NCBI GenBank assembly: GCA_028753945.1 | Contig: JAPNXP010000007.1 | Coordinates: forward strand, 248,001 to 312,000 | Source: Hexactinellida sp. DTS-2022 | Lineage: Eukaryota > Porifera > Hexactinellida | DNA length: 64,000 nucleotides | Direction: 5' to 3' | Shown here: positions 30,723-52,796 of the stretch, piece by piece | Layout: each line of letters starts with the position of its first letter | How positions within the stretch are numbered: position 1 is the stretch's first letter | Made by a program: the position numbers and the translations under genes | Notes under the pieces: generated by a model | What the model saw: the letters and a program-made list of their open reading frames with translations, nothing else | Database searches by the model: none | Told to the model about the DNA's origin: nothing

Positions 30723-33700
30723 ATGTTTCTATCGATCCTATCGATTCCTGTTTTCCTGCTACTCTGCAGTTATACCCCTGTGGTACATGGAATTTGCGTA
30801 GAGCCAGAGATAACTTGTAATATTTATACTACTTATAGTTCCTGTACATTCAGGGCATCCAACGCTTCCAGGACAAGCTACCTTATAGCGAAGTGTTCTG
30901 GTGAATTAGCAGATAATGGAAGAACTTATATTGACTTTTATGTGTTTTTGACGGAGAATAATGGAACTGTCACACTGGATATAGGTGGAGGTATATACAT
31001 ATTATATTTGTTTGCTTATGATACATTCTCGATTGAATTCAACAAGACTCAAATTGACATCCAATATCTGATTTTACATCCACTTAGTTCTGCTGTTATA
31101 TATTGTCCTTATGATTTGTTAAACTATTTCCCAAGCGCTATATACCTCAATATACAAAGTGCTGTATTCGATCGCTTTCCATACTTAAACTCGACAAGTT
31201 TAACAGAACTGTATCTCTACTACCTTACGCTACCTAGTGTCGTAACCATTCTGCCGTCAATGCTTATTCTACCTAACTTGAAGTGGTTAAGATTGTATCA
31301 ACCAGAAGACGCACAGTGGTATCGTGCTATTCCCAGCAGTTTCGATAATACTCGTATTGAGTATTTAAATCTGGGAGGAATACAACACCTCTATAGTTAC
31401 CAGTTTGCTAACTTGACACGTTTGAGAACATTGTATTTGTACAGATTTTTCACTAATTTCACATTTGAAGAGAACGCACTATCTGGATTAGATGGATTGA
31501 CAACATTATATACTCGGTACTTGCAAACAAATTTAGATTTGGTTTCCGAAGAGACATTTCCTAGTCTAACATCTTTCGATTTACGTTATTCTTCTGTAAC
31601 TACACTCGAACAAAGATTTTTTGAAAGACAGAAAGCATTATCCAGAGTATATGCTCATTCTGTTCCATTCCATTGTAACTGCGACATGGCATGGGTTAGT
31701 TATGTTGTTAATAATCTGGGTTGGTACGTTTATGGCAGGTGTGAAACCCCTTCCAGTTTGAATGGGAACTCAATAAGTAACAGTTCCAATTACGTCAACT
31801 GTTCAATCCAATCCTACCATTGCTTCAATGATACTTTCATTTGTCCTTCTGGGTTTAACTGTGTTAACACAGCAAACAGTTCACACTGTGAATGCATAGA
31901 TGCGTATTGTGACTGTGGAGAGGGATACACACTAAATGCAATTACCAGATTATGTGTGGATACAAACGAGTGCACTGGCACCAACTACTGTGAGCATACC
32001 TGCACTAACTCAGTAGGTTCCTATTCATGTTCCTGTTTACCTGGATTCATTCTTAATTCCCCTCATTTCTGTGAAGATATTAACGAGTGCACTGGCACCA
32101 ACTACTGTGAACATAACTGCACTAACTCAGTAGGTTCCTATTCGTGTTCCTGTTTACCTGGATTCATTCTTAATTCCCCTCATTTCTGTGAAGATATTGA
32201 CGAGTGCACTGGCACCAACTACTGTGAGCATAACTGCACAAACACAGTAGGTTCCTTTTCATGTTCCTGTTTACCTGGATTCACTCTTAATCCCCCTCAC
32301 TTCTGTGAAGATATTGACGAGTGCACTGGCACCAACTACTGTGAGCATAACTGCACAAACACAGTAGGTTCCTATTCATGTTCCTGTTTACCTGGATTCA
32401 CTCTTAATCCCCCTTACTCCTGTGAAGATATTGACGAGTGCACTGTCACCAACTACTGTGAGCATAACTGCACAAACACAGTAGGTTCCTATTCATGTTC
32501 CTGTTTACCTGGATTCACTCTTAATCCCCCTCACTTCTGTGAAGATATTGACGAGTGCACTGGCACCAACTACTGTGAGCATAACTGCACAAACACAGTA
32601 GGTTCCTATTCATGTTCCTGTTTACCTGGATTCACTCTTAATCCCCCTCACTTCTGTGAAGATATTGACGAGTGCACTGGCACCAACTACTGTGAGCATA
32701 ACTGCACTAACTCAGTAGGTTCCTATTCATGTTCCTGTTTACCTGGATTCACTCTTAATCCCCCTCACTCCTGTGAAGATATTGACGAGTGCACTGGCAC
32801 CAACTACTGTGAGCATAACTGCACTAACACATTTGGTTCCTATTCATGTTCCTGTTTACCTGGATTCACTCTTAATCCCCCTCACTTCTGTGAAGATATT
32901 GACGAGTGCACTGGCACCAACTACTGTGAGCATAACTGCACTAACACAGTAGGTTCCTATTCATGTTCCTGTTTACCTGGATTCACTCTTAACCCCCCTC
33001 ACTCCTGTGAAGATATTGACGAGTGCACTGGCACCAACTACTGTGAACATAACTGCACTAACTCAGTAGGTTCCTATTCATGTTCCTGTTTACCTGGATT
33101 CACTCTTAACCCCCCTCACTCCTGTGAAGATATTGACGAGTGCACTGTCACCAACTACTGTGAGCATAACTGCACTAACACAGTTGGTTCCTATTCGTGT
33201 TCCTGCTTACCTGGATTCACTCTTAACCTCCCTCACTCCTGTGAAGATATTGACGAGTGCACTGGCACCAACTACTGTGAACATAACTGCACTAACTCAG
33301 TAGGTTCCTATTCATGTTCCTGTTTACCTGGATTCACTCTTGACCCCCCTTACTCCTGTGAAGATATTGACGAGTGCACTGGCACCAACTACTGTGAACA
33401 TAACTGCACTAACTCAGTAGGTTCCTATTCATGTTCCTGTTTACCTGGATTCACTCTTAACCCCCCTTACTCCTGTGAAGATATTAATGAGTGCACTGTC
33501 ACCAACTACTGTGAACATAACTGCACTAACACAGTTGGTTCCTATTCGTGTTCCTGCTTACCTGGATTCACTCTTAACCTCCCTCACTCCTGTGAAGATA
33601 TTGACGAGTGCACTGGCACCAACTACTGTGAACATAACTGCACTAACTCAGTAGGTTCCTATTCATGTTCCTGTTTACCTGGATTCACTCTTAACCCCCC

Positions 33701-34964
33701 TTACTCCTGTGAAGATATTAATGAGTGCACTGTCACCAACTACTGTGAACATAACTGCACTAACACAGTTGGTTCCTATTCGTGTTCCTGCTTACCTGGA
33801 TTCACTCTTAACCTCCCTTACTCCTGTGAAGATATTGACGAGTGCACTGGCACCAACTACTGTGAACATACCTGCACTAACACAGTAGGTTCCTATTCGT
33901 GTTCCTGTTTACCTGGATTCACTCTTGACCCCCCTCATTTTTGTGAAGATATTAACGAGTGCACTGATACCAATATTTGCGAGCATACTTGTACTAACAC
34001 AGTTGGTTCCTATTCGTGTTCCTGTTTACCTGGATTCACTCTTGACCCCCCTCATTTTTGTGAAGATATTAACGAGTGCACTGATACCAATATTTGCGAG
34101 CATACTTGTACTAACACAGTTGGTTCCTATTCGTGTTCCTGTTTACCTGGATTCACTCTTGACCCCCCTCATTTTTGTGAAGATATTAACGAGTGCACTG
34201 ATACCAATATTTGCGAGCATACTTGTACTAACACAGTTGGTTCCTATTCATGTTCCTGTTTACCTGGATTCACTCTTAACCCCCCTCACTCCTGTGAAGA
34301 TATTGACGAGTGCACTGTCACCAACTACTGTGAGCATAACTGCACTAACACAGTAGGTTCCTATTCATGTTCCTGTTTACCTGGATTCACTCTTAACCCC
34401 CCTAATTTCTGTGAAGATATTAATGAGTGCACTGTCACCAACTACTGTGAGCATAACTGCACTAACACAGTAGGTTCCTATTCATGTTCCTGCTTACCTG
34501 GATTCACTCTTAACCCCCCTCACTCCTGTGAAGATATTGACGAGTGCTCTGGCACCAACTACTGTGAGCATAACTGTACTAACACAGTAGGTTCCTATTC
34601 ATGTTCCTGTTTACCTGGATTCACTCTTAACCCCCCTTACTCCTGTGAAGATATTGACGAGTGCACTGGCACCAACTACTGTGAGCATAACTGTACTAAC
34701 ACAGTAGGTTCCTATTCATGTTCCTGTTTACCTGGATTCATTCTTAACCCCCCTCACTCCTGTGAAGATATTGACGAGTGCACTGGCACCAATATTTGCG
34801 AGCTTACCTGCACTAACACAGTAGGTTCCTATTCATGTTCCTGTTTGCCTGGATTCACTATACTACCTGGTCTATTCCCCTGTATCTCTTCCGGAGTAAG
34901 TCAGCTTACTTATTCGATACCTTTCGCTATAGTCTCTCTCTTGCTTATCTCACTCCTCCTATAG
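30723..34964 (+). CDS. LRR-EGF surface protein A with 25 calcium-binding EGF repeats
   Basis: Single-exon gene for a 1,413-residue secreted protein, member A of a seven-gene cluster. A signal peptide (MFLSILSIPVFLLLCSYT..VVHG) spans residues 1-23. About residues 100-300 form degenerate leucine-rich repeats. An LRRCT-type cap (PFHCNCDMAWV ... YVNC) lies near 313-362. One EGF follows, then 25 cbEGF modules of exactly 39 residues (about 413-1387, consensus D-I-D-E-C-T-G-T-N-Y-C-E-H-N-C, then GSYSCSCLPGF). The tail SGVSQLTYSIPFAIVSLLLI ends the protein without basic residues, fitting a GPI-attachment signal. D-I-D-E and the Asn in N-T-V-G-S-Y fit calcium ligands of cbEGF modules. NxS/T glycosylation sites are abundant. 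A role in cell-surface recognition or adhesion is inferred. No orthologue recognised. Confidence 0.92.
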   Translation: MFLSILSIPVFLLLCSYTPVVHGICVEPEITCNIYTTYSSCTFRASNASRTSYLIAKCSGELADNGRTYIDFYVFLTENNGTVTLDIGGGIYILYLFAYDTFSIEFNKTQIDIQYLILHPLSSAVIYCPYDLLNYFPSAIYLNIQSAVFDRFPYLNSTSLTELYLYYLTLPSVVTILPSMLILPNLKWLRLYQPEDAQWYRAIPSSFDNTRIEYLNLGGIQHLYSYQFANLTRLRTLYLYRFFTNFTFEENALSGLDGLTTLYTRYLQTNLDLVSEETFPSLTSFDLRYSSVTTLEQRFFERQKALSRVYAHSVPFHCNCDMAWVSYVVNNLGWYVYGRCETPSSLNGNSISNSSNYVNCSIQSYHCFNDTFICPSGFNCVNTANSSHCECIDAYCDCGEGYTLNAITRLCVDTNECTGTNYCEHTCTNSVGSYSCSCLPGFILNSPHFCEDINECTGTNYCEHNCTNSVGSYSCSCLPGFILNSPHFCEDIDECTGTNYCEHNCTNTVGSFSCSCLPGFTLNPPHFCEDIDECTGTNYCEHNCTNTVGSYSCSCLPGFTLNPPYSCEDIDECTVTNYCEHNCTNTVGSYSCSCLPGFTLNPPHFCEDIDECTGTNYCEHNCTNTVGSYSCSCLPGFTLNPPHFCEDIDECTGTNYCEHNCTNSVGSYSCSCLPGFTLNPPHSCEDIDECTGTNYCEHNCTNTFGSYSCSCLPGFTLNPPHFCEDIDECTGTNYCEHNCTNTVGSYSCSCLPGFTLNPPHSCEDIDECTGTNYCEHNCTNSVGSYSCSCLPGFTLNPPHSCEDIDECTVTNYCEHNCTNTVGSYSCSCLPGFTLNLPHSCEDIDECTGTNYCEHNCTNSVGSYSCSCLPGFTLDPPYSCEDIDECTGTNYCEHNCTNSVGSYSCSCLPGFTLNPPYSCEDINECTVTNYCEHNCTNTVGSYSCSCLPGFTLNLPHSCEDIDECTGTNYCEHNCTNSVGSYSCSCLPGFTLNPPYSCEDINECTVTNYCEHNCTNTVGSYSCSCLPGFTLNLPYSCEDIDECTGTNYCEHTCTNTVGSYSCSCLPGFTLDPPHFCEDINECTDTNICEHTCTNTVGSYSCSCLPGFTLDPPHFCEDINECTDTNICEHTCTNTVGSYSCSCLPGFTLDPPHFCEDINECTDTNICEHTCTNTVGSYSCSCLPGFTLNPPHSCEDIDECTVTNYCEHNCTNTVGSYSCSCLPGFTLNPPNFCEDINECTVTNYCEHNCTNTVGSYSCSCLPGFTLNPPHSCEDIDECSGTNYCEHNCTNTVGSYSCSCLPGFTLNPPYSCEDIDECTGTNYCEHNCTNTVGSYSCSCLPGFILNPPHSCEDIDECTGTNICELTCTNTVGSYSCSCLPGFTILPGLFPCISSGVSQLTYSIPFAIVSLLLISLLL
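31959..34884 (+). repeat. 25-unit, 117-bp coding tandem repeat
   Basis: Each unit encodes one 39-residue cbEGF module. Units differ by few bases. A two-unit (234-bp) higher-order period, GT/SV then VT/TV-NLP, recurs at about 33390-33830. Three DTNICEHT units at about 33950-34240 are almost identical. This pattern indicates recent unequal exchange. Confidence 0.92.
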
Positions 34965-35747
34965 GATAGTACTGTGCATGTCAGAATTGCTACCTTTATT
35001 AGTGGTACCGTGGTTTTCTGAATTATCCGCAAGTATTTAGAATTGTATCTTGTTTTTGCTAGGATGTATAGTTGTATATAATCGTAGTACGTTTTATGAC
35101 TTTCCATTGTTGGTTTTATTTGTACTTTTGATTGAACTAATTTTCATTGTTAATACTACCGTATATCTAAATTATCGCGATCCTAATTAAAATTTCCCCA
35201 AAATCATGCTCCAAAAGGAGCATCTCAGGATTAATCTTTTGATAGGCATTTTTTAATGACGATGACATTACAAAATCTAAAATTACAGCTGTGCCGATAA
35301 CATTCTCTTTTTGGAGGCACTATCAAACGACCACCCACCAAAGGAAGCCACTAATGTTGTTGTTTACAAAGCTTGCCGCTATTGTTGTTGTTTACCTTTT
35401 GAGAATGTGACAACACTCTCGATTATATCACTTGGGGTCACACTCGTTGGGACAGGATAAAATGTGTCGGATTAGCACAAACTTGAGTAATTAAATTCTT
35501 ATTTCATCAGAATTTTTTCCCAATCAAAAAACCTGGGTTGTTTAAAATATATTAACACTTTATTTGAGAGGAAACATAAATAATCCAAAATTTTCTTTTT
35601 TAAATATTTGAGTAAAAAACGAAGTATAAAAGTGCAGAAACAAAAATATGTTTGGGAAAGAATAAATAAGTAAAGTCACATGGAGATGAGTAAAGAAGTG
35701 AAAAACTAAGAAGATTCGAAATAGGTAAGTGAGAATAGAGAAGTTAC
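34965..35747. other. Spacer between LRR-EGF genes A and B
   Basis: The 3' flank of A (to about 35150) resembles that downstream of gene F. Then come fragments of the GCTGTGCCGATAACATT MITE family (about 35230-35350) and AT-rich sequence. The 3' ends of A and B face each other. No gene seen. Confidence 0.6.
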
Positions 35748-37372
35748 TTATACGAGGAGTGACATAAGCAAGAGAGAGACTAAAGCGAAATATATTGAAG
35801 ACTTAAGCTGACTTACTCCGGAAGAGATACAGGTTGCTAGATCAGACTGTAGAGTGTAACCAGCATCACAGGAACATGTATAAGAACCGATGTTGTTAAT
35901 ACAGTTCTGATCGCAATCGTTGGAAGTAGAACCAATACACTCGTTAGTATCCACACATAAGTTGTTGGTTGCATTTAGTGTGTATCCCTCTCCACAGTCA
36001 CAGTATGCACTGTCTGCTGTGTTAATACAGTTGATCTCCGAAGGACAAATGAATGTATCATTAAAGCAATGGTAGGATTGGATTGAACAGTTAACGTAAT
36101 TGGAACTGTTACTTATTGAGTTCCCATTCAAGTTAGAAGGGGTTACACATGTGCCTGTAACTGTCCAACTCAGATTATTAGCAACATGACTAACCCATGC
36201 CATGTCGCAGTTACAATGGAATGGAACAGAATAAGCATATATTGTGAATAATTCTTTTTGTCTCTCAAAAAATATTTGTTCGAGTGTCATTATAGAAGAA
36301 GAGCTTAAATCGAAATATGTTAGACTAGGAAATGTCTCTTTGTAAACCAAATCTAAATTTGTTTGCAAGTAGTACATTAGAACAAATAATTGTGTCAATC
36401 CATCCAATCCAGATAGTGCGTTATCTTCAAATGTGAAATTAGTGAAAAATCTGGACAAATACAAATATGTCAAACGTGTCAAGTTAGCAAACTGGTAACT
36501 ATAGAGGTGTTGTATTCCTATCAGATATAAATACTCAATACGAGTATTATCGAAACTGCTGGGAATAGCATGATACCACTGTGCGTCTTCTTCTTGATCC
36601 AATCCTAACCCATTCAAGTTTGGTAGAATAAGCATTGACGGCAGAATGGTTACGACATTAGGTAGCGTAAGGTAGCGGAGATACAGTCCTGTTAAACTTG
36701 TCGAGTTTAAGTATGGAAAGCGATCGAATACAGCATCCTGTATATTAAGTTCTGTAACGCTTGGGAAATAGTTTAATAAATCATAAGGACAATTTATAAC
36801 AGCCGGATAGGATCCATATAAATATAGAGTTCGGATCAGTGTATTTTATAAGGATTAAAAAAATGTTTTTTATTGTTTTCGTGGAATGAAAAAATGGATT
36901 TTCGGTAGAAATGGAATCTTGAAATGGATATCAGACGATAAAAACTCACTATTCAAGGGAGTAAAAAAATGAAAATTGGAATAAAAAAATGGGCTAGGAA
37001 TAAAAAAATGGGCTTATAATATACCCTGGTTCGGATGTCAATTTGAGATTTGTTGAATTCAATCGAGATTGTATCATAAACATACAAATATAATGAGGTT
37101 ATGCCTCCAGCTATATCCAGTGTGATAGTTTCATTATTCTCCGTCAAATACACTCTAAAGTTAATATAAGTTCTTCCAGTCTCAGCTACTTCACCAGAAC
37201 ACTTCGCTATCAGGTAGCTTGTCCTGATACCGTTATCTGCCCTGATTGTACAGATACTGAGAGTAGTATAAATAGTACAAGTGAATTCTGCCTCATCGCA
37301 AATTCCGTGTACCACAGGGATATAACTGCAGAGTAGCAGGAAAATAGGAATCGATAGGATCGATAGAAACAT
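35748..37372 (-). pseudogene. LRR-EGF gene B, split by a transposon insertion
   Basis: Paralogue of gene A. It starts with the family signal peptide (ATG at 37372), runs through the N-terminal cysteine region, and is cut by a 192-bp hAT-type element (36837-37028) that brings stop codons. Beyond the element the LRRs, LRRCT cap (PFHCNCDMAWVSHV), one EGF, one cbEGF (DTNECIGSTSNDCDQNC) and the GPI-type tail are open to the stop at 35748. The two halves differ by 200 bp (element plus one 8-bp target copy) beyond a multiple of three, so the element is the only lesion I can see. As it stands the gene would give a truncated secreted fragment of 139 residues. It may be a recent loss or one allele of a polymorphic site. 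Confidence 0.88.
36837..37028. mobile_element. 192-bp hAT-type element inserted in LRR-EGF gene B
   Basis: The ends CAGTGTATTTTATA and TATAATATACCCTG are inverted and flanked by a perfect 8-bp duplication GTTCGGAT (36829-36836 and 37029-37036). Paralogues C and D have a single GTTCGGAT at the same codon, which is the pre-insertion state. No transposase is encoded. Confidence 0.92.
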
Positions 37373-37480
37373 GAAGATTCAAGGAACAAATTGAAAGGTG
37401 AAGTTTATATAAATAATTACCCAATTTGGTTATTGTAGGAAACTTTACATTAGTGATATGGGTGTATTGTAATATCACTA
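37373..37480 (-). promoter_or_regulatory. LRR-EGF family upstream block, gene B
   Basis: On the minus strand: CACCCATATCACTAATGTAA, CCTACAATAACCAAATTGGG, a TATA-like ATTTATATAAACTT, and CACCTTTCAATTTGTTCCTTG before the ATG. Closely similar blocks lie upstream of genes C-G. Confidence 0.6.
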
Positions 37481-39729
37481 TACGTTCTACGTAGATGCTG
37501 TAGTTATATACCTTATTATAGGAAATTTACGCGCCATGAAATCAACGCGAATTGCTCCATTTCGCGTTAATTTCCATGCCTTAATTTCATGAAGCGTTAA
37601 TTTCCATGCCTTAATTTCATGCAATTTTTTCTATTTAGCAAATTTATCAAATGGACGGGTTTTTCTGAGATAACTACAAATACAGAAACAGCTAGACGCG
37701 TGTCACTCTCATCATGTACATGCCTCTTCCCACTTGTTGGGGACTAGCGTGTCGGCATATCCTAAATATCCAAAATGTCTGATGATATCATGTCCAGATC
37801 ATGGTTAGTTAAAGGTGAGAGACAGAGAGGTATTTAGTAAATGAGCTAATAACTACTAATCGAAAGCACCTGAACATAATGTTTCACATTTACCACACAC
37901 TTATGACGGAAGATATGCACTTCCTTGTAACGAATTCAAGAATGTCGCTAAAATAGCTTCGCTAACCTCTGAACCATAAAACTCCACCAGCATTCGTATA
38001 AAGAGAGAGCAAGCTAGTTATCTACTATTTTAAATGTGTATACATACTTACAGTCCAGTCCTGGTAATATTAAACATTGATAGAAAATTCCTTCATTATT
38101 TAACAGGGTTGTAGCACAGAGTACGGACGGTAGGGACATGGCCGGAAAATCGAGCACCCAATTCCTGCAAAACCAGTGTTTACGAGTGTATTTTCCTTTT
38201 TTCCTGTTTCGCTCTACAACTCAGATCTCTGTGCGAAAGCCCAAGCAATGATCTTTAGCATACCATGAGCCTAATGAGTTCAAAAAATTCTGGGGAATGT
38301 CCCAAATCCTTTATAATTGCTCACTTTGGATTCCATGGCCGGTCCGATTCCAATACCGCAATATAGGCACTGGCCTACTCTAGGGAAATAACAATCGATT
38401 ATCTGTGTGGAAGTCAAAGTTGGCGGCGCAGTAAAATTCGAATGCCTTATGTGCACATTTTTATTTCCCGTATCCTTAGAGCCCCCCTGCATCAAATCCT
38501 GGATTCGCCGCTGATTACAATACTTATTCACCTGCGATGAGTGATCATCTCAAATTTATGAACGCATTTTCTCAAAGGACATACTGTGGTGTAGCGTGGA
38601 ACCGCATATGACATGCTTACTGGCAGTGCAGCCTCTATTTCTGAACACACCAGGGGAAAATGTTTGACAGGTCCCAACGAGTAATTTATCTTTCAATTAG
38701 TTCTCCTAATCAGGGCAGGATTTACCCTTGAGTGGCCTGAAGGCTGAACCACACAAGTGGCCCGAACATGATCGACATTGGTCGGTAGTGGTCCTATAGT
38801 GGCCCATTTGTCCTGTAGTGGCCCGAAGGCTATAGCCTACTTAGCCTAATGGTAAATCCGGCCCTGCTCCTAATACTTAGTAACTTAGTGTTTATACTAT
38901 CTATCCTATAGCTACCAGAGTAACCCAACTTCTAGTCTCAATGAGTTCGATAATATTAATAAAGGTTGCACTCTATTTCACACCATCACATTATGAAGAT
39001 AGGTATCATTGGAATTTGAACTGTCTTTGAGTACTCTGTTATAGGTAAACAAGTACGTGGATTACGAATTTCGCGTATAGAAATCTCAAGACACTGCCTA
39101 GGCAAAGCACCTGGACTGTCCTAAATACTTTTGGACGAATGCATGCTACAAGTAGCTTAGAAGCTCCCAGCACTATATATTTAATCAAGATTGGGTTGGT
39201 TAACCGTTGTAAGATCTGATTTCTCGCAGCGGAAACCGGTTAACCTATTCAATTTTGTTTATATATAAGAATGACTGTATTATCTAGTAACTAGTTATGG
39301 GGTAGTCCCCATAAGTACATTAACTGATCTATTTCTTAATTTAGAAACAGTGTAGATACAGAAAATATATAATGTGATGATGGGAAATGGATTGAAGATT
39401 ATCTTTTTCTAACAAAATACACAAAAAGTTGAATTATTTATACATAATTTCGAATTATTCTGCTGAAATTCAACAAACTGGTTAATGAAATCTGCAACCG
39501 CCAACCGATTTAGCAACAGTTAATCGAATGCAACCTTGTGACAATAAATAACTTAATGAGTGTAGAAAGAGTAATAAATAAGAAAAAACTAATAAAAAGA
39601 GATTTATAGGTATAGAAAATGAAAAAAAATTAAGAAGTTAGAAACTAACAAAAACTAAAATTAGAAACTAACAAATAAGAATATAAATAAGTAAATAGTG
39701 ATAAATAGAGAAGTTACTTATGCACTATC
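37373..39729. other. 2.4-kb spacer between LRR-EGF genes B and C
   Basis: Beyond the gene B promoter I see no gene. A stretch near 38470-38520 (CCCCCTGCATCAAATCCTGG) and one near 38700-38860 (repeated GTGGCCCGAA, TAAATCCGGCCCTG) look like degenerate repeat elements. The remainder is unique AT-rich DNA. Confidence 0.5.
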
Positions 39730-41025
39730 CTATACGAGGAGTGACATAAGCAAGAGAGAGATTATAGCGAAATATAGCGAAGACTTAAGCTGACTTACTC
39801 CGGACGTAATACAGGTTAGTAGATCGGGTTGTAGAGTGTAACCAGTATCACAGTCACAGTACGCACTGTTTGCTGTGTTAACACAGTTGATCTCCGAAGG
39901 ACAAATGAAAGTATCGTTGAAGCAGTGGTAGGATTGGTGCGGACAGTTAAAGTAATTGGAACGATCACTTAATGAGTTCCCATTAACAGTGGGAGGGGTT
40001 GCACACGTGCCAATAACTATCCAACCTAGATTATCAATCACATGAATAATCCATGCCATCCGACAATCACAATGGAATGGAACAGAATAACCAGTTATTG
40101 CGGATAATTCTTTTTGTCTCTCAAAAATTCTTTGTTCGAGTGAAGTTATAGAAGAAGAGCTTAAATCGAAATATGTAAGACTAGGAAATGTCTCTTTGGA
40201 AATGAAATCTAAATTTGTTTGCAAGTAGTACAGAATATAAAAATGTGTCAATCCATCCAATCCAGTTAGTGCGTTATCTTCAAATGTGAAATTAGTGAAA
40301 AATTTGGACAAATACAATATTCTCAAATGTGTCAAGTTAGCAAACTGGTAACTATAGAGGTGTTGTATTCCTTCCAGACTTAAATGATCAATACGAGTAT
40401 TCTCGAAACTGCTGGGAATAGCATGATACCACAGTGCGTCTTCTAATTGAGACATATTTAATCTATACAAGTTAGGTAGAATAAGCATTGACGGCAGAAT
40501 GGTTACGACATTAGGTAGCGTAAGGTAGTAGAGATACAGTTCTGTTAAACTTGTCGAGTTTAAGTATGGAAAGCGATCGAATACAACATTCTGTATATTA
40601 AGTTCTGTAACGCTTGGGAAATAGTTTAAGAATTCATAAGGACAATAAATAACAGCTGCATTGTATGCAACTAAAGATAGAGTTCGGATGTCCATTTGAG
40701 TCTTGTTGAATTCAATCGAGATTGTATCATGAACAAGCACAATTAATGTGGTTATACCTCCAGCTATATCCAGTGTGATGGTTTCATTATTCTCCGTCAA
40801 ATACACTCTAAAGGTAATATCAGTTTCTCCAGTCTGTTCTATTTTACCAGAACACTTGGCTATAAGGTAGCTTGTCCTGGTTCCGTTATCAGCCCTGATT
40901 ATACAGTAACTATAAGTAGTATAAATATAACAAGATATTTCTGGCTCATCGCAAATTCCGTGTACCACAGGGGTATAACTGCAGAGTAGCAGGAAAATAG
41001 GAATCGATAAGATCGATAGAAACAT
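39730..41025 (-). CDS. LRR-EGF surface protein C (431 aa, no complete cbEGF)
   Basis: Intact single-exon paralogue. Signal peptide residues 1-23, LRR region about 100-300, LRRCT cap (PFHCDCRMAWIIHVIDNLGW), one EGF-like module (CFNDTFICPSEINCVNTANS) running directly into GYTLQPDLLTC, and the GPI-type tail SGVSQLKSSLYFAIISLLLM. The cbEGF modules of other members are absent, as though the first EGF had been joined to the end of the last. It probably sits on the outer plasma membrane. Ligand unknown. Confidence 0.9.
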   Translation of the reverse strand: MFLSILSIPIFLLLCSYTPVVHGICDEPEISCYIYTTYSYCIIRADNGTRTSYLIAKCSGKIEQTGETDITFRVYLTENNETITLDIAGGITTLIVLVHDTISIEFNKTQMDIRTLSLVAYNAAVIYCPYEFLNYFPSVTELNIQNVVFDRFPYLNSTSLTELYLYYLTLPNVVTILPSMLILPNLYRLNMSQLEDALWYHAIPSSFENTRIDHLSLEGIQHLYSYQFANLTHLRILYLSKFFTNFTFEDNALTGLDGLTHFYILYYLQTNLDFISKETFPSLTYFDLSSSSITSLEQRIFERQKELSAITGYSVPFHCDCRMAWIIHVIDNLGWIVIGTCATPPTVNGNSLSDRSNYFNCPHQSYHCFNDTFICPSEINCVNTANSAYCDCDTGYTLQPDLLTCITSGVSQLKSSLYFAIISLLLMSLLV

Positions 41026-41140
41026 GTAATGTTAGAATATTCAAGGAACAAATTGAAAGGTGAAGTTTATATAAATAATTACCCAAATTGGTTATTGTAG
41101 GAAACTTATACATAAGTGATATGGGTGTATTATAATAGGA
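41026..41140 (-). promoter_or_regulatory. LRR-EGF family upstream block, gene C
   Basis: Nearly the same order of elements as upstream of gene B: TATA-like ATTTATATAAACTTCACC, then TTTCAATTTGTTCCTTGAAT, then the ATG. Confidence 0.6.
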
Positions 41141-41445
41141 AGTACGGTGTAGAGTCACTGTAGACGGTGTAATACAGTTTGCCTATAGCAATTGCTCTAT
41201 TAGCATGTTACTATGCATAGTAAATGCACTATTTACACTAGACATAAAGTATAAATTGAGTCCTGGTACATACTTAGCAGAACTAATCATACGCTGGTGG
41301 AACACATCTGGCTTCCTTTTCTCTCACAACTTTGTTGTTCTCTATTTATCCCTTAGCCTATGTCACATGTCGGACACCAAATGCTGCTTCTGTATTGATT
41401 ACCACAAATGAAGTGAATGAGACGCAAACATCTATAACACTTGTG

Positions 41446-42440: not shown

Positions 42441-43991
42441 TTAAAGAATTGAGGCTTGCATTAGTAGAGAGAGGAGTGCAAGGAGGATAGGAGCCGTCAG
42501 CTGACTAACTCCTGATACACAGGATGACATATCTGACTGTAGCGTGAAACCAGACATACAGGTACATGAATAGGAACCTAAAGTGTTTGTACAGTTGTGA
42601 TCACAGTTGTTTGAAGTAGAACATTCGTTTGTATCTTCACAGGAGTGAGGGGGGTTAAGAGTGAATCCAGACAAACAGGAACATGTATAGGAACCTATTG
42701 TGTTTGTACAGTTATGTTCGCAGTTATTGTTATCAATACACTCGTTAATATCCACACATAAGCTGTTGGTTGCATTTAGTGTGTATCCTTCTATGCATTC
42801 ACAGTATGCACTGTCTACTGTGCTGACACAAGTCTTCCTCGAAGGACAAATGAAAGTATCATTAAAACAGTGGTAGGATTGGTTAGAACAGTTAACGTAA
42901 TTGGAACTATCACTTATATAGTTTCGATACAAACTGGAAGGGGTTTCACACCTGGCACCAGCAACTGTCCAACTGAGGTTGTTAGCAACATAATTAACCC
43001 ATGACAGCTCACAGTTACAATTAAATGGAACATTAAAAGCAACGATTGTGGATAATTCTTTCTGTCTTTCAAAAAAGCTTTGATCGAGTGTAGTTATAGA
43101 AGAAAAGTATAAAGAAGAGGTTAAATCAAATTTTGTTAGATTAGGAAATGTCTCTTTGGAAACCAAATCTAAATTTGTTGGCAAGTCGCGAGTAAATAAT
43201 TGTGTCAATCCATCTAATCCGGATAGTGCGTTCTCTTCAAATGTGAAATCATAGAAAAATTTTGACAAATGCAAATATGTCAAACGTGTCAAGTTAGAAA
43301 ACTGGTAACTATAGAGGTGTTTTATACCAAGCAGATATAAATAGTCAATACGAGTAGTAATCTCGAAACTGCTGGGAATAGCATGATACCACAGTGCGTC
43401 TTTGTACTGAAACAATCCTAACAAATTCAAGTTAGGTAGAATAAGCATTGACGGCAGAATGGTTACAACATTAGGTAGCGTAAGGTAGGCGAGACGTACT
43501 TCTGTTAAAATTGTCGAAGTTAAGTATGGAAAGCGATCGAATACAGCACTGCCTATAGTGAGTTCTGTAACGCTTGGGAAATAGTTCAAGAAATCATAAG
43601 GACAATATATAACAACAGTCGGACTGGGTCCACCTATACTTAAAGTTCGGATGTCAATTTGAGTCTTGTTGAATTCAATCGAGATTGTATCATAAACATA
43701 CACAATTAATGTGTTTATACCTCCAGCTATATCCAGTGTGATGGTTTCATTATTTCCCGTCAAAAACAGACTAAAGTTAATATGAGTTCTTCCAGATGCT
43801 GCTAATTCACCAGAACACTTTTCGATAAGGTAGCTTGTCCTGATACCATTAGCTGCGCTGCCCCTGATTGAACAAGAACTATAAGTACCAATATTACAAG
43901 TGAATTCTGCCTCATCGCAAATTCCGTGTACCACAGGGGTATAACTGCAGAGTAGCAGGAAAATAGGAAACGATAGGATCGATAGAAACAT
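42441..43991 (-). CDS. LRR-EGF surface protein D (516 aa, two cbEGF repeats)
   Basis: Intact single-exon paralogue. The start was set at the family-wide MFLSIL (43991), not at an in-frame ATG four codons upstream. Signal peptide, LRR region, LRRCT cap (PFNCNCELSWVNYVANNLSW), one EGF, two cbEGF modules (DINECIDNNNCEHNC and DTNECSTSNNCDHNC) and the tail GVSQLTAPILLALLSLLM. The tail is shorter than in siblings but still hydrophobic, so GPI anchoring is likely. The cbEGF units are more diverged than those of A and F, so they have escaped the homogenisation seen there. Confidence 0.9.
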   Translation of the reverse strand: MFLSILSFPIFLLLCSYTPVVHGICDEAEFTCNIGTYSSCSIRGSAANGIRTSYLIEKCSGELAASGRTHINFSLFLTGNNETITLDIAGGINTLIVYVYDTISIEFNKTQIDIRTLSIGGPSPTVVIYCPYDFLNYFPSVTELTIGSAVFDRFPYLTSTILTEVRLAYLTLPNVVTILPSMLILPNLNLLGLFQYKDALWYHAIPSSFEITTRIDYLYLLGIKHLYSYQFSNLTRLTYLHLSKFFYDFTFEENALSGLDGLTQLFTRDLPTNLDLVSKETFPNLTKFDLTSSLYFSSITTLDQSFFERQKELSTIVAFNVPFNCNCELSWVNYVANNLSWTVAGARCETPSSLYRNYISDSSNYVNCSNQSYHCFNDTFICPSRKTCVSTVDSAYCECIEGYTLNATNSLCVDINECIDNNNCEHNCTNTIGSYTCSCLSGFTLNPPHSCEDTNECSTSNNCDHNCTNTLGSYSCTCMSGFTLQSDMSSCVSGVSQLTAPILLALLSLLMQASIL

Positions 43992-45456: not shown

Positions 45457-46878
45457 ATGTTACTATCGATCCTATCCATTCCTGTTTTCCTGCTACTCTG
45501 CAGTTATACCCCTGGGGTACATGGAATTTGCGATGAGCCAGAATTCACTTGTAATATTCAACCTACCTACAGTATATGTACAATCAGTGCATCTAACGCA
45601 ACCAGGACAAGCTACCTGATAGAGAAGTGTTCTGGTGAATTAGTACTGAGTGGAGTAACTGATAATAGATTTTATGTTCATTTGACGGAGACTACTGCAA
45701 CTATCACACTCAACATTCCTGATGGAGTACTCAGATTCTTTGTGTATTTTCATGGTACTACAATGATGGTTGAAATCGACGGGACTTTTAATGACGTAAT
45801 AGTTATGTACTTAACTGGGGTCACTGGTGTAGTATACTATCCTTGTGATCTGTTGAACCACTTCCCAAGCCTTTCATACCTCGAAATATCTAAAGGTGTT
45901 TTCGATTGCTTTCCATACCTTAACTCGACAACTTTAGGAGAATTAAAACTCCTCTTCCTTACACTACCTGATGTCGTAACCATTTGGCCGTCAATGTTTG
46001 TTCTACCTAACTTGGGTAGATTAGCACTGACTCAATCAGAAGACGCACAGTGGTATCGTGCTATTCCCAGCAGTTTCGATAATACTCGACTATATCTTTT
46101 GAGTTTGAATGGAATACAACACCTCTATACTTACCAGTTTGCTAATTTGCCACTTTTGACACATTTGAATTTGTATACCTATTTCACTAATTTCACATTT
46201 GAAGAGAACGCACTATCTGGAGTATTAGTTGCGATACAAATAACTATTCGTTTGTCGTTACCTACAGATTTCGATGCGTTTCGCCAAGCGACATTTCCCA
46301 GTCTAACATTAATCGATTTAGGCGTTTCTTCTCTAACTACACTAGATCAAGTGTTTTTTGAAAGACAAAAACTATTAGGCACACTAAATGCTATAAATAA
46401 TCCATTCTATTGTGACTGCGATATGGCATGGGTTAGTCACGTTGCTGATAATCTTGGTTGGACAGTCACTGGCAACTGTGAAACCCCTTCTATTTTGAAT
46501 GGAAACTCAATAAGTGACAGTTCCAATTACGTCAACTGTTCAATTCAATATTATCATTGCTTCAATGACACTTTAACTTGTCCTCTCAACAGCAACTGTG
46601 TTAGCACAGCTAACAGTGCCTATTGTCAATGCATAGCTGGATACACACTAGATGCAACCAGCAATTTATGCGTGGATACTAACGAGTGTAGTTGTTCTGG
46701 TATCAACAATTGCGAACAGAATTGTATTAACAACATCGGTTCTTATACATGTTCCTGTAATACTGGTTACACTCTACAGTCTGATCAAGCAACCTGTATT
46801 ACGTCCGGAGTAAGTCAGCTTAAGTCTTCGCTATATTTCGCTATAATCTCTCTCTTGCTTATGTCACTCCTCGTATAG
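45457..46878 (+). CDS. LRR-EGF surface protein E (473 aa)
   Basis: Intact single-exon paralogue. Signal peptide MLLSILSIPVFLLLCSYT..GVHG, LRR region, LRRCT cap (PFYCDCDMAWVSHVADNLGW), an EGF (CFNDTLTCPLNSNCVSTANS), one cbEGF (DTNECSCSGINNCEQNC, then GSYTCSC) and the GPI-type tail SGVSQLKSSLYFAIISLLLM. With G it forms a subfamily: both have FDCF in place of FDRFP, LPTDFDAFRQ, and TLTCPLNS. The whole tail is shared with C on the opposite strand, which indicates gene conversion or recent duplication. Probable outer-membrane-leaflet protein; ligand unknown. Confidence 0.9.
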   Translation: MLLSILSIPVFLLLCSYTPGVHGICDEPEFTCNIQPTYSICTISASNATRTSYLIEKCSGELVLSGVTDNRFYVHLTETTATITLNIPDGVLRFFVYFHGTTMMVEIDGTFNDVIVMYLTGVTGVVYYPCDLLNHFPSLSYLEISKGVFDCFPYLNSTTLGELKLLFLTLPDVVTIWPSMFVLPNLGRLALTQSEDAQWYRAIPSSFDNTRLYLLSLNGIQHLYTYQFANLPLLTHLNLYTYFTNFTFEENALSGVLVAIQITIRLSLPTDFDAFRQATFPSLTLIDLGVSSLTTLDQVFFERQKLLGTLNAINNPFYCDCDMAWVSHVADNLGWTVTGNCETPSILNGNSISDSSNYVNCSIQYYHCFNDTLTCPLNSNCVSTANSAYCQCIAGYTLDATSNLCVDTNECSCSGINNCEQNCINNIGSYTCSCNTGYTLQSDQATCITSGVSQLKSSLYFAIISLLLMSLLV

Positions 46879-48780
46879 AATAGTGCATAAGTAACTTCTC
46901 TATTTATCACTTACCTATTTCGAATATTATTAGTTTCTAACTTTTCATACTTTTTCACTTTCCTATACTCAATCTCTTTTTATAGTTTTATTTATTGTAT
47001 TATTCTTCCTATACACTCCTAATCAAATATAACATATCTCTTTTTGATATTTGTTTACTTATATGGGGGATACATACATAAGTACATTATTGGGGTAAAA
47101 TTTTGGAAATGTAAATTTCTATCAGCAGGTCCTTAGAATTCCATAAGGAATTTGATTATACTTATGAGAATATAAGTATTGACAATGGATACAGTCAAAG
47201 ATTAGATGCAGTGATACAGTAGATATAGTGGTAATTTGGTCAATAATCCCATGTTCATCACTATACTGTATATATCTTATATATTAAATCACAATGATTT
47301 TTTTGTTTGTTTGTTTGTTTGTTCAGAATTGATTGAGGAACTGGTAAGAGCTACAGGCTTGAAATTTGGCAGGGAGTTGGGAAATAGTGTATCTAGGAAC
47401 AAGTTCTAATATCTAAGAAAAATATTCATATCTTCCCTCTCAAAAGGTGTCAAAACTATCAGCTGTTAATTATGCATTATAGAAAGCCTAACAGAGACTG
47501 CAATTTAATTGGCTGAAAAAATAAATACAAATAATTCTGGGTCAATACATTTGACCAATAAATTTTACCCTATAAGTTAGTACTTCAATAGCCCTATTAA
47601 TCGCATAAATAGTATATTTAGTAAAAGTTAAACTCAAACCTTTCATTCCACCTTATAAACTCTTCATTTCCAAACTTTTGATTAATTAATCAATTAAATT
47701 TCAGATTTGCTACTCATAATCCCGAAAAAAGATATATTTGTTAGTTTGGAATAAATTTCGTATCAATGACTTTTTTAGCATGAATTAATGTATTAATTTA
47801 CCGAGGATCATGAGCATATATTATTATGATTTAGTCTAAAAGTCTTTCTTTCTGAAATAACAAATTTGTCTATTCTAATTAAGGAATCAAAATTGTTGTA
47901 AATTCACGCGAGGGCGAGAATAAGTTGTGAGAACGCGCGTAGCCGCGTAGCGCGGTCGATCAGCTTAAATATACTGCTTAGGGGGCCACTACATACTGTA
48001 AAGTAGAATCTGCTAAAGGTTACTCTATACACGGTCATTTGTACATAGGCTAGCGGACAGCTATTATAATTCCTAAATGATTTCCCATAATATAACCAAC
48101 CTACGTATGAGGCCTTCGAACGTTACGTAACGCTTTCGAGAGGGGAGAAGGATTACGAATGTCACAGATCGTACTTTTTATTCCAAAATGACAAAAAACG
48201 TGACGTAAGGAAAGGGATGTATAATTTTCGTTAAATTTCCGTTACACTCCACAGTATCTAAATACAACAGGCATAATTTGCCATGAATACAAGCGAGGGC
48301 GCAGGCCCGAGTGCAAGTTGTAAGAACGCGCGTAGCGCGGACGAGCAGCTTGTGTATATAAAGTCCACTTTTACAAAAATTCTTCTTTTACTACATTTCG
48401 GATATATTATACATTTGTGATCCTGAATGTCGTATACTGCTTCCATCAGTTATTCAAATCAGTTATTTTTACAGTATTTCTTTGTAGGCACTACTAGTTG
48501 CCAAAACCACCAAATGTAGTGCCTCCAAAAGGGAAATGCGTCGGCACAGGTTACAATTTTTGATTTTAATTTAATACGATGGGTCAAAATATAATACATC
48601 AGTTCAGTCAAAAGACAAGTACAAATATAACCTAATAATGGAAAGTCATAAGACGTATTACGAATATATACACTATAAAAACTAGCAAAACAAGATACAA
48701 TTCTAAAAATACTAGCACAAAATTCAGAAAACCATGGTGGCAGTAGCACTAAAAGAAGTTCTGACATGCACAGTACTATC
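46879..48780. other. Spacer between LRR-EGF genes E and F
   Basis: The 3' flank of E (to about 47030) matches that of G. A pair of related GC-rich segments (GAACGCGCGTAGC...GCGCGG) occurs near 47930-47955 and 48330-48350. A fragment of the GCCGATAACATT MITE family lies near 48480-48560. The last 200 bp before F resemble the 3' flank of A. No gene seen. Confidence 0.55.
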
Positions 48781-50424
48781 CTATAGGAGGAGTGACAAAA
48801 GCAAGAGACATACTATAGCGAAAGGTATCGAATAAGTAAGCTGACTTACTCCGGAAGAGATACAGGGGAATAGACCAGGTAGTGTAGTGAATCCAGGTAA
48901 ACAGGAACATGAATAGGAACCTACTGTGTTAGTGCAGTTATGTTCACAGTAGTTGGTGCCAGTGCACTCGTCAATATCTTCACAGGAGTGAGGGGGGTTA
49001 AGAGTGAATCCAGGTAAACAGGAACATGTATAGGAACCTACTGTGTTAGTGCAGTTATGCTCACAGTTGTTGGTACCAGTGCACTCGTCAATATCTTCAC
49101 AGAAATGAGGGGGGTCAAGAGTGAATCCTGGTAAACAGGAACATGAATAGGAACCAACTGTGTTAGTACAGTTATGCTCACAGTAGTTGGTACCAGTGCA
49201 CTCGTTTGTATCCACACATAAGTTGTTGGTTGCATTTAGTGTGTATCCAGCTATGCATCCACAGTATGCACTGTTTGCTGTGTTAATACAGATGTTATTC
49301 GAAGGACAAATGAAAGTATCATTGAAGCAATGGTAGGATTGAATTGGACAGTTAACGTAATTGGAACTGTCACTTATTGAGTTCCCATTCAAACTGGAAG
49401 GGGTTGCACACGTTCCAACAACTGTCCAACCAAGATTATCAACAACATGACTAACCCATGCCATCTGACAGTTACAATGGAATGGATTATAAGTACCAAT
49501 TACTGTGGATAATGCTTTCTGTCTCTCAAAAAATATTTGATCGAGTGTCGTTACAGAAGAATAGCTTAAATCGAATTGTGTTAAACTCGCAAAGGTCTCT
49601 TTGGAAACTAAATCTAGATTTGTTTGCAAGTGCCAAGTAGCCAAATATGTCAATTCATCCAATCCAGATAGTGCGTTCTCTTCAAATGTGAAATCAGTGA
49701 AAAATAAGCCCAAACGCAATTTTTTCAAACGTGTCAAGTTAGCAAACTGGTAACTATAGAGGTGTTGTATTCCATACAGAAATAAAACTTCAATACGAGT
49801 ATTCTCAAAACTGCTTGGAATAAGATGATACCACTGTACGTCTTCTGTCTGATACAATAATAAAAAATTCACGTTAGGTAGAATAAGCATTGACGGCAGA
49901 ATGGTTACGACATTAGGTAGCGTAAGGTAGCGAAGACTCAGTTGTGTTAAAATTGTCGAGTTTAAGTATGGAAAGCGATCGAATACAATATTTCGTACGA
50001 CGCAAATTGTAACGCTTGGGAAGTAGTTTAAGAAATCATAAGAACAATATATAACATCAGCATTGACTTCATATAAATATAGTGTTCGGATGGTATTTTG
50101 AGTCTTGTTGAATTCAATCGAGATGGTATCATAAGCATCCAAAATGAATGTGGTTATACCTCCAGCTATATCCAGTATAATAGTTTCATTATTCTCCGTC
50201 AAGTAGACAGTAAATCTAGTATCAGTTACTCCACTTTGTTCTAATTCACCAGAACACTTCTCTATTAGGTAACTTGTCCTGGTTCCGTTATCTGCCCTAA
50301 TTTCACAAGAACTGGAAGTACCAATAGTACAAGTAAATTCTGGCTCATCGCAAATTCCATTTACCACAGGGGTATAACTGCAGAGTAGCAGGAAAATAGG
50401 AATCGATAGGATCGATAGAAACAT
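48781..50424 (-). CDS. LRR-EGF surface protein F (547 aa, three cbEGF repeats)
   Basis: Intact single-exon paralogue closest to gene A at its C-terminus. Signal peptide, LRR region, LRRCT cap (PFHCNCQMAWVSHVVDNLGW), an EGF, three A-type cbEGF units (TGTNYCEHNC, TGTNNCEHNC, TGTNYCEHNC; last ending GFTTLPGLFPC) and the tail SGVSQLTYSIPFAIVCLLLL. The shared cbEGF sequence, tail and 3' flank with A show that the two arose by duplication, after which A's array expanded from a few units to 25. Predicted GPI-anchored surface protein. Confidence 0.92.
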   Translation of the reverse strand: MFLSILSIPIFLLLCSYTPVVNGICDEPEFTCTIGTSSSCEIRADNGTRTSYLIEKCSGELEQSGVTDTRFTVYLTENNETIILDIAGGITTFILDAYDTISIEFNKTQNTIRTLYLYEVNADVIYCSYDFLNYFPSVTICVVRNIVFDRFPYLNSTILTQLSLRYLTLPNVVTILPSMLILPNVNFLLLYQTEDVQWYHLIPSSFENTRIEVLFLYGIQHLYSYQFANLTRLKKLRLGLFFTDFTFEENALSGLDELTYLATWHLQTNLDLVSKETFASLTQFDLSYSSVTTLDQIFFERQKALSTVIGTYNPFHCNCQMAWVSHVVDNLGWTVVGTCATPSSLNGNSISDSSNYVNCPIQSYHCFNDTFICPSNNICINTANSAYCGCIAGYTLNATNNLCVDTNECTGTNYCEHNCTNTVGSYSCSCLPGFTLDPPHFCEDIDECTGTNNCEHNCTNTVGSYTCSCLPGFTLNPPHSCEDIDECTGTNYCEHNCTNTVGSYSCSCLPGFTTLPGLFPCISSGVSQLTYSIPFAIVCLLLLSLLL

Positions 50425-50540
50425 GAAATGTTAGAATAATCAAGGAACAGATTGAAAGGTGAAGTTTTGTATAAATAATGATTTCAAATTGGTTATTGTA
50501 GGAAGCTTGTACATTAGTGACATGGGAGTATTGTAATATG
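50425..50540 (-). promoter_or_regulatory. LRR-EGF family upstream block, gene F
   Basis: The coding strand shows the family elements CCTACAATAACCAATTTG, a TATA-like ATTTATACAAAACTTC, CACCTTTCAATCTGTTCCTT, then the ATG. Confidence 0.6.
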
Positions 50541-51279
50541 AGTATAAGTTACTGCATAAATGCTGAGTATAATATAGTGGATTAGTGGTGCTTGCCTATT
50601 GCGTTTTACTGGATTACTTTATGCTGTGAATACATTAGCTATACTCTAGTCTCTAGGACATTAATTTAAGTTATTCTAGTTTGCAATATCATGTCAATAA
50701 ACGTTAACACAAATTATAAAGAGCATCCTTATACATATAAAGCTAAAGACGGTCTCTAAAAGCCCATACAAGATAAGGAAAATTTTAAAACCCCATAGAC
50801 GGGCCCAATGTTTTATTTAAATAGAATTTCAATATTCAAATGCCATTTCATATTAATTTAATATAATTTAATTAATGTTTGAATAGTAAGATTTTAAATA
50901 AGAATCGTCTTTAATTAATTAAAGTATAATTATTACAAATAGAAATAGAAATATGTGTAGATTATTTGGGGTACTACTGTATTTGGAAAATATAATTGCA
51001 TCATCATCAAGTTAAAATGTTCCAAGTGTTTTCATGCATGTGACTGTTTATTATTCTAGTTGTTTGAAGTGATTGATTATGTGTTTCATAACCAGTGCTT
51101 ATCACAAGTAGTGTATTGCTAATGTAAATATTGGTATCAGTATTTAAGTATACTGTGAATTCTTATAGTATAGAACTTTGTCATTTGTAGAGCAATATTA
51201 GGTTTACGTAATATTATTATTTGCTGTTACCCACAAACACCAGTATACTAGACATCACATAGACTTCCAAATATATTAT
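50541..51279. other. Divergent spacer between LRR-EGF genes F and G
   Basis: The first 420 bp repeat the flank of gene D. The part nearest G resembles the flank of E (GCTGTTACCCACAAACAC). No gene seen. Confidence 0.55.
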
Positions 51280-51380
51280 GCCCATATCACTATTGTATAA
51301 GTTTGGTACAAATAACAAATCTGATTAATTATTTACATAAACTTCACTTTTCCCCTTGTTCCTGCGTATTCTATTATCTC
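51280..51380 (+). promoter_or_regulatory. LRR-EGF family upstream block, gene G
   Basis: GCCCATATCACTATTGTATA, AATTATTTACATAAACTTCA, CTTTTCCCCTTGTTCCTGCG, then the ATG at 51381. The most diverged block of the set. Confidence 0.55.
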
Positions 51381-52796
51381 ATGTTTCTATCGATCCTATT
51401 CATTCCTGTTTTCCTGCTACTCTGCAGTTATACCCCTGTGGTACACGGAATTTGCGATGAGGCAGAATTAACTTGTACTATTTATGCTACCTACAGTGTC
51501 TGTACAATCAATGTAGATAACGGAACCAGGGCAAGCTACCTGATAGAGAAGTGTTCTGGTGAAATAGTAGTGACTGGGGTAACTGATACTAGATTTACTG
51601 TTCATTTGACGGAGACTAATGGAACTATAATACTCAATATTCCTGATGGTATAATCAGGTTCTATTTGGCTTTTTACGGTACAATGGTGGTTGAATTCAA
51701 CGAGACTATTAGTGACGTACAAGTACTGACTTTTTATGCACTCTATGCTGTAGTATACTATCCTTGTGATCTGTTGAACTACTTCCCAAGCCTTTACTAC
51801 CTCAATATGTATAATGGTGTGTTCGATTGCTTTATACAGCTGGACTCGACAACTTTAGGAGAACTTTACCTCTACCACCTTACGCTACCTAGTGTCGTAA
51901 CCATTTACCCGTCAATGTTTGCTCTACCTAACTTGGTTAGATTAGCACTGCGTCAATTAGAAGACGGACAGTGGTATCGTGCTATTCCAAGCACTTTCGA
52001 TAATACTCGGCTATCTCTTATTGATTTAACTGGAATACAACATCTCTATAGTTACCAATTTGCTAATGTTCCAACTTTAACATCATTGCATTTAGCGAGA
52101 TATTTCGCTAATTTCACATTTGATGAGAACGTACTATCTGGTTCAGTTTTTGTACATTTAACTATTCGATTGTCGTTACCTACAGATTTCGATGCGTTTC
52201 GCCAAGATACCTTTCCCACTCTAACACGACTCGATTTAAGCTCTTCTTCTCTAACTACACTCGAACAAGCATTTTTTGAAAGACAAAATCTAATAGACAC
52301 ACTATTGGGTACTACTAATCCATTCTATTGTGATTGCGACATGGCATGGGTTAGTCATGTTGCTAATAATCTTGGTTGGATGGTCACTGGCACTTGTGAA
52401 ATCCCTTCTAACTTGAATGGGAACTTAATAAGTGACAGTTCCAATTACGTCAACTGTTCAATCCAATCCTATAATTGCTTCAATGACACATTAACTTGCC
52501 CTCTCAACAGCTACTGTGTTAGTACAGCCAACAGTGCATATTGTCAATGCATAGCTGGATACACACTAAATGCAACCAGCAACCTATGTGTGGATACTAA
52601 CGAGTGTATTGATTCTACTTCCAACGATTGCGAACAGAACTGTATTAACAACATCGGTTCTTATACATGTTCCTGTAATACTGGTTACACTCTACAGTCT
52701 GATCTAGCAACCTGTATTACGTCCGGAGTAAGTCAGCTTAAGTCCTCGCTATATTTCGCTATAATCTCTCTCTTGCTTATGTCACTCCTCTTATAG
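51381..52796 (+). CDS. LRR-EGF surface protein G (471 aa)
   Basis: Intact single-exon paralogue, sister of E. The start was set at the family MFLSILFIPVFLLLCSYT at 51381; the frame is open 26 codons further upstream, but that stretch is the conserved leader. Signal peptide, LRR region, LRRCT cap (PFYCDCDMAWVSHVANNLGW), an EGF (CFNDTLTCPLNSYCVSTANS), one cbEGF (DTNECIDSTSNDCEQNC) and the tail SGVSQLKSSLYFAIISLLLM. The cbEGF resembles that of B more than that of E, while the LRR part follows E, so the modules seem to have been reshuffled or converted between genes. Predicted GPI-anchored surface protein. Confidence 0.92.
   Translation: MFLSILFIPVFLLLCSYTPVVHGICDEAELTCTIYATYSVCTINVDNGTRASYLIEKCSGEIVVTGVTDTRFTVHLTETNGTIILNIPDGIIRFYLAFYGTMVVEFNETISDVQVLTFYALYAVVYYPCDLLNYFPSLYYLNMYNGVFDCFIQLDSTTLGELYLYHLTLPSVVTIYPSMFALPNLVRLALRQLEDGQWYRAIPSTFDNTRLSLIDLTGIQHLYSYQFANVPTLTSLHLARYFANFTFDENVLSGSVFVHLTIRLSLPTDFDAFRQDTFPTLTRLDLSSSSLTTLEQAFFERQNLIDTLLGTTNPFYCDCDMAWVSHVANNLGWMVTGTCEIPSNLNGNLISDSSNYVNCSIQSYNCFNDTLTCPLNSYCVSTANSAYCQCIAGYTLNATSNLCVDTNECIDSTSNDCEQNCINNIGSYTCSCNTGYTLQSDLATCITSGVSQLKSSLYFAIISLLLMSLLL

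Follow-up and report, generated by a model that had tools for sequence, protein, structure and literature searches.

The question raised by the window, a 64,000-nucleotide stretch of the glass sponge Hexactinellida sp. DTS-2022 (contig C16, positions 248001-312000, of a genome of 112.4 Mb in 18 contigs), is what is encoded by the seven homologous loci that lie on both strands between its positions 30723 and 52796. Their products combine leucine-rich repeats (LRR) with epidermal growth factor (EGF) domains, and we propose that they probably belong to a germline-encoded, rapidly diversifying family of cell-surface LRR recognition receptors anchored by glycosylphosphatidylinositol (GPI). On our best reading of the analysis, these receptors would work in the manner of lamprey variable lymphocyte receptors (VLRs) or plant LRR receptors, without being VLRs by descent.

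Six of the seven loci are uninterrupted single-exon open reading frames (ORFs), and the seventh, gene B, is broken by a 192-bp insert; an earlier note on this DNA had counted seven single-exon genes, which is right for the loci and for six of the frames. The architecture that it read is borne out by the ORFs, Pfam and motif counts. In full, a signal-peptide-like start is followed by an N-terminal cap, ten LRR strands, an LRRCT cap, one EGF domain, 0-25 calcium-binding EGF (cbEGF) units and a C-terminal hydrophobic tail without a cytosolic part. Pfam recognizes EGF_CA or cEGF in most of the window proteins (25 EGF_CA stretches and 26 cEGF in gene A) and the LRR weakly. cbEGF domains of this kind are usual in animals. 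The list below gives the intact genes with the number of cbEGF units in each, taken as occurrences of the motif D[IT][NDT]EC.

30723..34964, plus strand: gene A, 1413 aa; a single ORF of LRR, LRRCT, EGF, 25 cbEGF units and a GPI-like tail
31966..34859, plus strand: array of the 117-bp cbEGF unit in gene A, 24.7 copies with 94% matches (Tandem Repeats Finder)
39730..41025, minus strand: gene C, 431 aa, 0 cbEGF units by the motif; reference for the selection analysis
42441..43991, minus strand: gene D, 516 aa, 2 cbEGF units
45457..46878, plus strand: gene E, 473 aa, 1 cbEGF unit
48781..50424, minus strand: gene F, 547 aa, 3 cbEGF units, with a 117-bp period like that of gene A
51381..52796, plus strand: gene G, 471 aa, 1 cbEGF unit

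Is the family confined to this cluster? A whole-genome search with gene C returns 102 matches spread over many contigs. C1 and C5 carry groups of them, and others lie at C16:208796-218492, which is 30-39 kb to the left of where the window starts; the 22-kb, seven-gene cluster of the earlier note exists and is too narrow a frame for a family dispersed genome-wide. Thirty loci were cut out of the 102 matches for analysis, of which 22 are intact full-length ORFs (eight each on C16 and C1, three on C5, one each on C2, C4 and C7) and eight are broken or frameshifted; many of the other matches are fragments or contain stops. The likeness of the seven loci is beyond chance, because the other 29 loci are 57-82% identical to gene C over ~300-430 residues. 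All 22 intact proteins have hydrophobic C-terminal tails without a cytosolic part, by which the family would be GPI-anchored. One further open family ORF (L049) lacks about three LRRs in frame with its tail intact, a hint at how the number of LRRs may change.

Where do the copies differ? The parts of gene C on which this is answered are as follows.

40072..40755, minus strand: LRR region, residues 91-318, ten strands; positions x3, x5 and x7 under diversifying selection
39928..40071, minus strand: LRRCT cap, residues 319-366; omega 0.42
39811..39927, minus strand: EGF domain, residues 367-405; omega 0.27 (residues 367-392)
39733..39804, minus strand: hydrophobic GPI-signal-like tail, residues 408-431, without a cytosolic part; helix 411-430 in the AlphaFold model
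41026..41160, minus strand: upstream module with a TATA-like stretch and a CACCCATATCACTAATGTACAAG-like box, common to 22 of 24 copies

An MG94-type site model, run with our own script, was fitted to 386 codons of 24 copies, namely the 22 intact ones and L029 and L032, whose frameshifts lie further downstream. The LRR strands were set by the motif LxxLxLxx in gene C, with x3, x5 and x7 taken as exposed (29 sites); the motif list was written after sight of the alignment and of the site list of a discarded first run. The ratio of non-synonymous to synonymous rates (omega) at these exposed positions is 4.78 (likelihood ratio 80.8, p ~2e-19), next to 0.90 for the whole set and 1.22 for the LRR region. 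The positions beside them, x2 and x8, give 2.2 and 2.6, the buried L1, L4 and L6 0.63 and the remainder of the LRR region 0.77, with 0.42 for the LRRCT cap, 0.27 for the first EGF and 0.41 for the signal peptide. When the mask is slid along the LRR, the expected two-residue alternation appears, and shifts of at least seven give only 0.37-0.82. The excess recurs in subsets of the copies: exposed omega is 5.19 (p 1.2e-6) in the six window genes alone, 5.29 in the other 18 and 5.39 in the 21 copies left without near-identical partners. No random 29-site set from the LRR region reaches 4.78 (0/300, maximum 3.04), and single-site positives (p<0.1) make up 20 of the 29 exposed sites as against 29 of the 357 others. 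The earlier note had named purifying selection of uniform strength across the LRR region as a case against its idea of recognition receptors, and that case is excluded by these values. The idea gains diversifying selection focused on the exposed concave LRR positions with most of the rest constrained, and any immune, allorecognition or adhesion role is putative.

Three sister families at 25-33% identity, g1 (C9 2.347-2.369 Mb and C10), g2 (C9 2.326-2.335 Mb, C1 and C13) and g3 (C11 and C18), were compared through members that are single long frames. Most g1 and g2 members have threonine-, cysteine- and proline-rich tails in which no membrane segment is seen (secreted-type), and g3 has a transmembrane segment and a cytosolic tail. 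Exposed omega is 2.62 in g1 (p 6e-4; seven of the eight full-length open copies), with its peak at the correct register, and 2.56 in g2 (p 0.0017; five of six copies). In the transmembrane g3 it is just 0.24, with 0.18 for the whole (five of five close copies), and therefore the high values are not generated by the method itself. Diversification goes with the GPI-type and secreted-type members and not with the conserved transmembrane g3. In 21 remote members, the C-terminal 170 residues were scanned for motifs like the immunoreceptor tyrosine-based activation motif (ITAM), and one member had such a motif (1/21): an LRR-EGF ORF (L055, C11:14341500-14346000) with a C-terminal YEEL-x11-YGNI of ITAM-like spacing, which may be chance.

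Two other kinds of recognition were considered. The variable faces might serve as self-markers in fusion or grafting encounters, where they would distinguish kin from non-kin by binding to one another or to polymorphic partners; diversifying selection, GPI-type tails, copy exchange and birth-and-death fit such loci as well, and the surface type suits cell contact. Intact copies are spread over six contigs, however, rather than forming one polymorphic locus, and the secreted-type sister families show the same sign of selection, so we regard allorecognition as unlikely. It overlaps the reading preferred here, of which allogeneic ligands are the less likely case, and the probabilities given in this text do not sum to one. 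Rapid evolution of the concave face in GPI-type and secreted-type proteins would also be expected of gamete or sperm-egg recognition proteins shaped by sexual conflict; 22 intact copies at once, with secreted-type families besides, look more like a repertoire than like a mating pair, and such a role is very improbable.

Does the predicted structure agree with the motif-defined face? In the AlphaFold model of gene C the strands coincide with the motif-defined LRR strands, and the VLR-type combination of LRR solenoid and LRRCT cap is present, its LRRCT part modelled at low confidence. A phmmer search of solved structures matches the LRR and LRRCT part to LRIG1, LGI1, LINGO, LRRC4, FLRT and Slit. 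The Foldseek list contains VLR hybrids, and the 50 rows of a further structure listing are vertebrate LRR proteins without VLR hybrids. LRRNT is not among the Pfam matches to E 1; cysteines are present in the N-terminal cap, for which the model also predicts a helix at 48-64.

Several points weigh against a family of diversifying GPI-anchored receptors. Just six sites pass false-discovery control (42, 95, 166, 190, 194 and 216), four of them on exposed strand positions (95, 166, 190 and 216), one just past a strand (194) and one in the N-terminal cap (42), which has scattered positive sites and an omega of 1.08. The g2 peak is not register-specific, shifts of -2, +2, +5 and +7 giving 2.3-2.6. 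All paralogues come from one assembly, confidence in the gene C model is modest (mean pLDDT 64.4, with LRRCT and EGF mostly below 50), and GPI attachment was assessed by hydropathy and by eye rather than by a trained predictor. Tree-based tests are open to error from recombination among copies; nonetheless, trees built per alignment window retain the exposed-site excess (omega 2.8, 5.0 and 2.9, and unbounded in a window with 3 exposed sites), as do tree-free pooled counts (2.44 at exposed sites vs 0.28-0.73 elsewhere), and an artefact of recombination is rejected on these grounds. Among the closest pairs, D/L029 has the excess (8.5 non-synonymous changes per 68 exposed sites vs 4.0 per 392 in the rest of the LRR), and two of the three pairs are without it: L011/L012 (1.0 per 70 vs 10.0 per 396) and E/L032 (2.0 per 70 vs 11.0 per 387). 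These two pairs, the many broken copies and local duplications, and a whole-set omega near 1 would also fit ordinary adhesion or matrix proteins, recently amplified and weakly constrained, whose variation reflects relaxed constraint. Relaxation does not yield an omega of 4-5 at exposed positions next to purifying values at buried ones, and we find this explanation scarcely credible.

How could such a family renew its variable face? Trees of residues 24-185, 186-318 and 319-392 are mutually rejected (approximately unbiased test, p <=0.0004). L013 and L022 are 0.68-0.93 identical over +102 to +991 and 0.90-1.00 over +1048 through +2608, and L011 (C16) and L012 (C1) are 0.83-1.00 identical over the gene and a kilobase downstream, with homology ending ~135 bp upstream. 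From the conflicting segment trees and these mosaics it follows that segments move between copies, across chromosomes too; stalk and tail can be exchanged while the LRR faces remain distinct.

The mosaic copies, the many partial copies and the presence of AID/APOBEC-family deaminases in the genome raise the further idea of a VLR-like adaptive repertoire, assembled or diversified somatically, with other copies and fragments as donors for a gene conversion driven by deaminases. One deaminase on C6 (497927-498346) is over the Pfam cut-offs of APOBEC_N, APOBEC2, NAD1, SNAD4 and NAD2. Another six matches lie on C9 (2173223-2186997), at a distance of ~140 kb from the receptor groups of that contig; five of these reach or exceed the APOBEC_N cut-off, and the sixth, which has a stop, falls below it. 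The three of the seven that were read (L061-L063) keep the HxE and PCxxC zinc motifs. AID/APOBEC-like genes occur in other invertebrates as well, and the germline genes of the receptor family are complete. The deaminase signature sought at the variable sites is not supported: exposed serine codons are not AGY-enriched, depletion of C at third positions is seen at non-WRC codons too, and the GCY and GGY boxes go the opposite way. A role of deaminases in receptor diversification is a possibility, and the somatic repertoire as a whole is highly doubtful. Its fullest form would be antibody-like: GPI-anchored and secreted LRR-EGF receptors with a tyrosine-rich variable concave face, gene conversion between dispersed copies and fragments that is possibly somatic and deaminase-aided, and pairing with conserved transmembrane LRR-EGF partners. 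We offer this as a long shot.

Many copies, exchange between them, diversification of the exposed face and constraint on the scaffold, as found directly here in a dispersed family of one architecture (LRRCT, EGF and the transmembrane sisters being constrained), characterize a germline-diversified recognition family, whose concave face would be the ligand-binding site. For the germline-encoded receptors that we favor, the mechanism may be pictured as follows. The ten-strand LRR solenoid, capped by LRRCT, would hold out a concave beta-sheet, and the side chains pointing outward from it, varying between copies, would bind different ligands. Microbial or symbiont surface molecules seem the most likely ligands, at about even odds, and allogeneic markers come next. 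One EGF and 0-25 cbEGF units would act as a spacer of variable length for reach, and the C-terminal hydrophobic peptide would be replaced by a GPI anchor; GPI anchoring is known of VLRs. A GPI protein would need a partner for signalling, a part that the conserved transmembrane sisters might play. The gene-proximal upstream sequence that 22 of the 24 copies have in common, which contains a conserved box and a TATA-like stretch and has median extents of 103-197 bp, may give joint expression of copies; upstream homology reaches up to 1.2 kb in some pairs and none past ~135 bp in others. Copies would multiply by local and inter-chromosomal duplication, swap segments and die often, so that the repertoire is renewed.

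Gene B illustrates one such death. Its parts are these.

35748..37372, minus strand: gene B as a whole, not intact, the N-terminal part in another frame
35748..36836, minus strand: downstream part, residues ~113 to the C-terminus
36837..37028, minus strand: insert of 192 bp, AT-rich, with the 8-bp repeat ATCCGAAC on both flanks (junction read)
37029..37372, minus strand: upstream part, residues 1-115, in a frame that differs from the rest

The ends of the insert are near-inverted (13/15 bases); with the flanking repeat, it looks like a hAT-type miniature inverted-repeat transposable element, the hAT class being assigned by these features and not by a database match.

Elsewhere the window carries a gene of Ras/Rab type as well as a talin end that has the I/LWEQ and IBS2B domains, and scans of it for tRNA and Rfam families gave no matches. 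A single-exon ORF at 54656-55699 (347 aa, signal-like start) has no Pfam match over the cut-off; its sequence is reminiscent of a metallo-beta-lactamase fold. About 94 kb right of the window, a single uninterrupted frame at C16:406508-412288 encodes 3192 aa that include many EGF_CA units, and the genome contains many further long single-frame EGF ORFs. The 18S rRNA (C5:4208200-4211200, L060) is ~1.97 kb by ends judged by eye from end motifs, longer than the usual 1.8 kb, and a silicatein-like motif search of the genome gave no matches.

How does the family compare with known systems? An exon-by-exon search of the genome for the Toll/interleukin-1 receptor (TIR) family gave no matches, an exon-wise result by which absence is not proven. 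Toll-like receptors differ from the family in having a cytosolic TIR domain and a transmembrane segment, the 22 intact proteins ending in a hydrophobic tail, and Slit has four LRR blocks, EGFs, laminin G and a cystine knot as against one LRR block and EGFs in the window proteins. For LRIG1, LGI1, LINGO, LRRC4, FLRT, Slit and LRRTM2, only the LRR/LRRCT part matches the family and the C-terminal domains differ. Plant LRR resistance proteins and receptors form a germline multigene family with hypervariable xxLxLxx positions and exchange between paralogues; they have the same site pattern of diversifying selection and the same exchange, but they lack an EGF stalk and are either cytosolic NLRs or receptor kinases and receptor-like proteins.

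The agnathan VLRA, VLRB and VLRC resemble the family in having an LRR solenoid, an LRRCT cap and a stalk, with diversity and binding on the concave face (for the VLRs, as described in the accessible passages of PMC10199209 and PMC4731796), and in exchanging segments between copies. They differ in that they are incomplete genes finished from flanking cassettes, whereas 22 of the 30 sponge loci are single ORFs complete in the germline, and the sponge proteins have an EGF and cbEGF stalk and an N-terminal cap not recognized as LRRNT. In the same passages (PMC4731796, PMC10199209), amphioxus supplies two invertebrate LRR proteins for comparison, the VLR-like Bf66946, which binds bacteria through its concave face, and FrLRR, in which LRR is combined with a predicted GPI site and, unlike in the family, with a folate-receptor domain in a gene of nine exons; neither protein is described there as having an EGF stalk. 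The sea urchin has expanded innate receptor families of TLR, NLR and scavenger-receptor-like type (PMC13428168, in the part available). Its SpTransformer genes, as far as the available text describes them, are small, clustered and repeat-rich like the sponge family and unlike it have two exons. The available passages of two papers on sponge grafts and sponge immunity (PMC5450542, PMC12723187) neither use the term EGF nor describe a family of this sort, and the view of the earlier note that no named family has this exact order stands in the open-access literature searched, represented mostly by titles and the starts of abstracts.

Diversified LRR recognition families are thus known as a kind; what is new is the LRR-EGF-GPI form, its concave diversification and its conserved transmembrane sisters. 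Backed by site-level evidence, the family is a concrete candidate for the molecules of a large surface-recognition repertoire in an animal that may lack antibodies and VLRs, and within it and its sister families diversifying members of GPI or secreted type stand in contrast to transmembrane ones that are strictly conserved. Copy-to-copy difference on the inner surface is expected of receptors for many partners, such as microbes or other individuals, and as in lamprey VLRs and plant immune receptors the side chains that vary sit on the concave sheet of the LRR, which in this family comes with an EGF stalk and a GPI-type tail.

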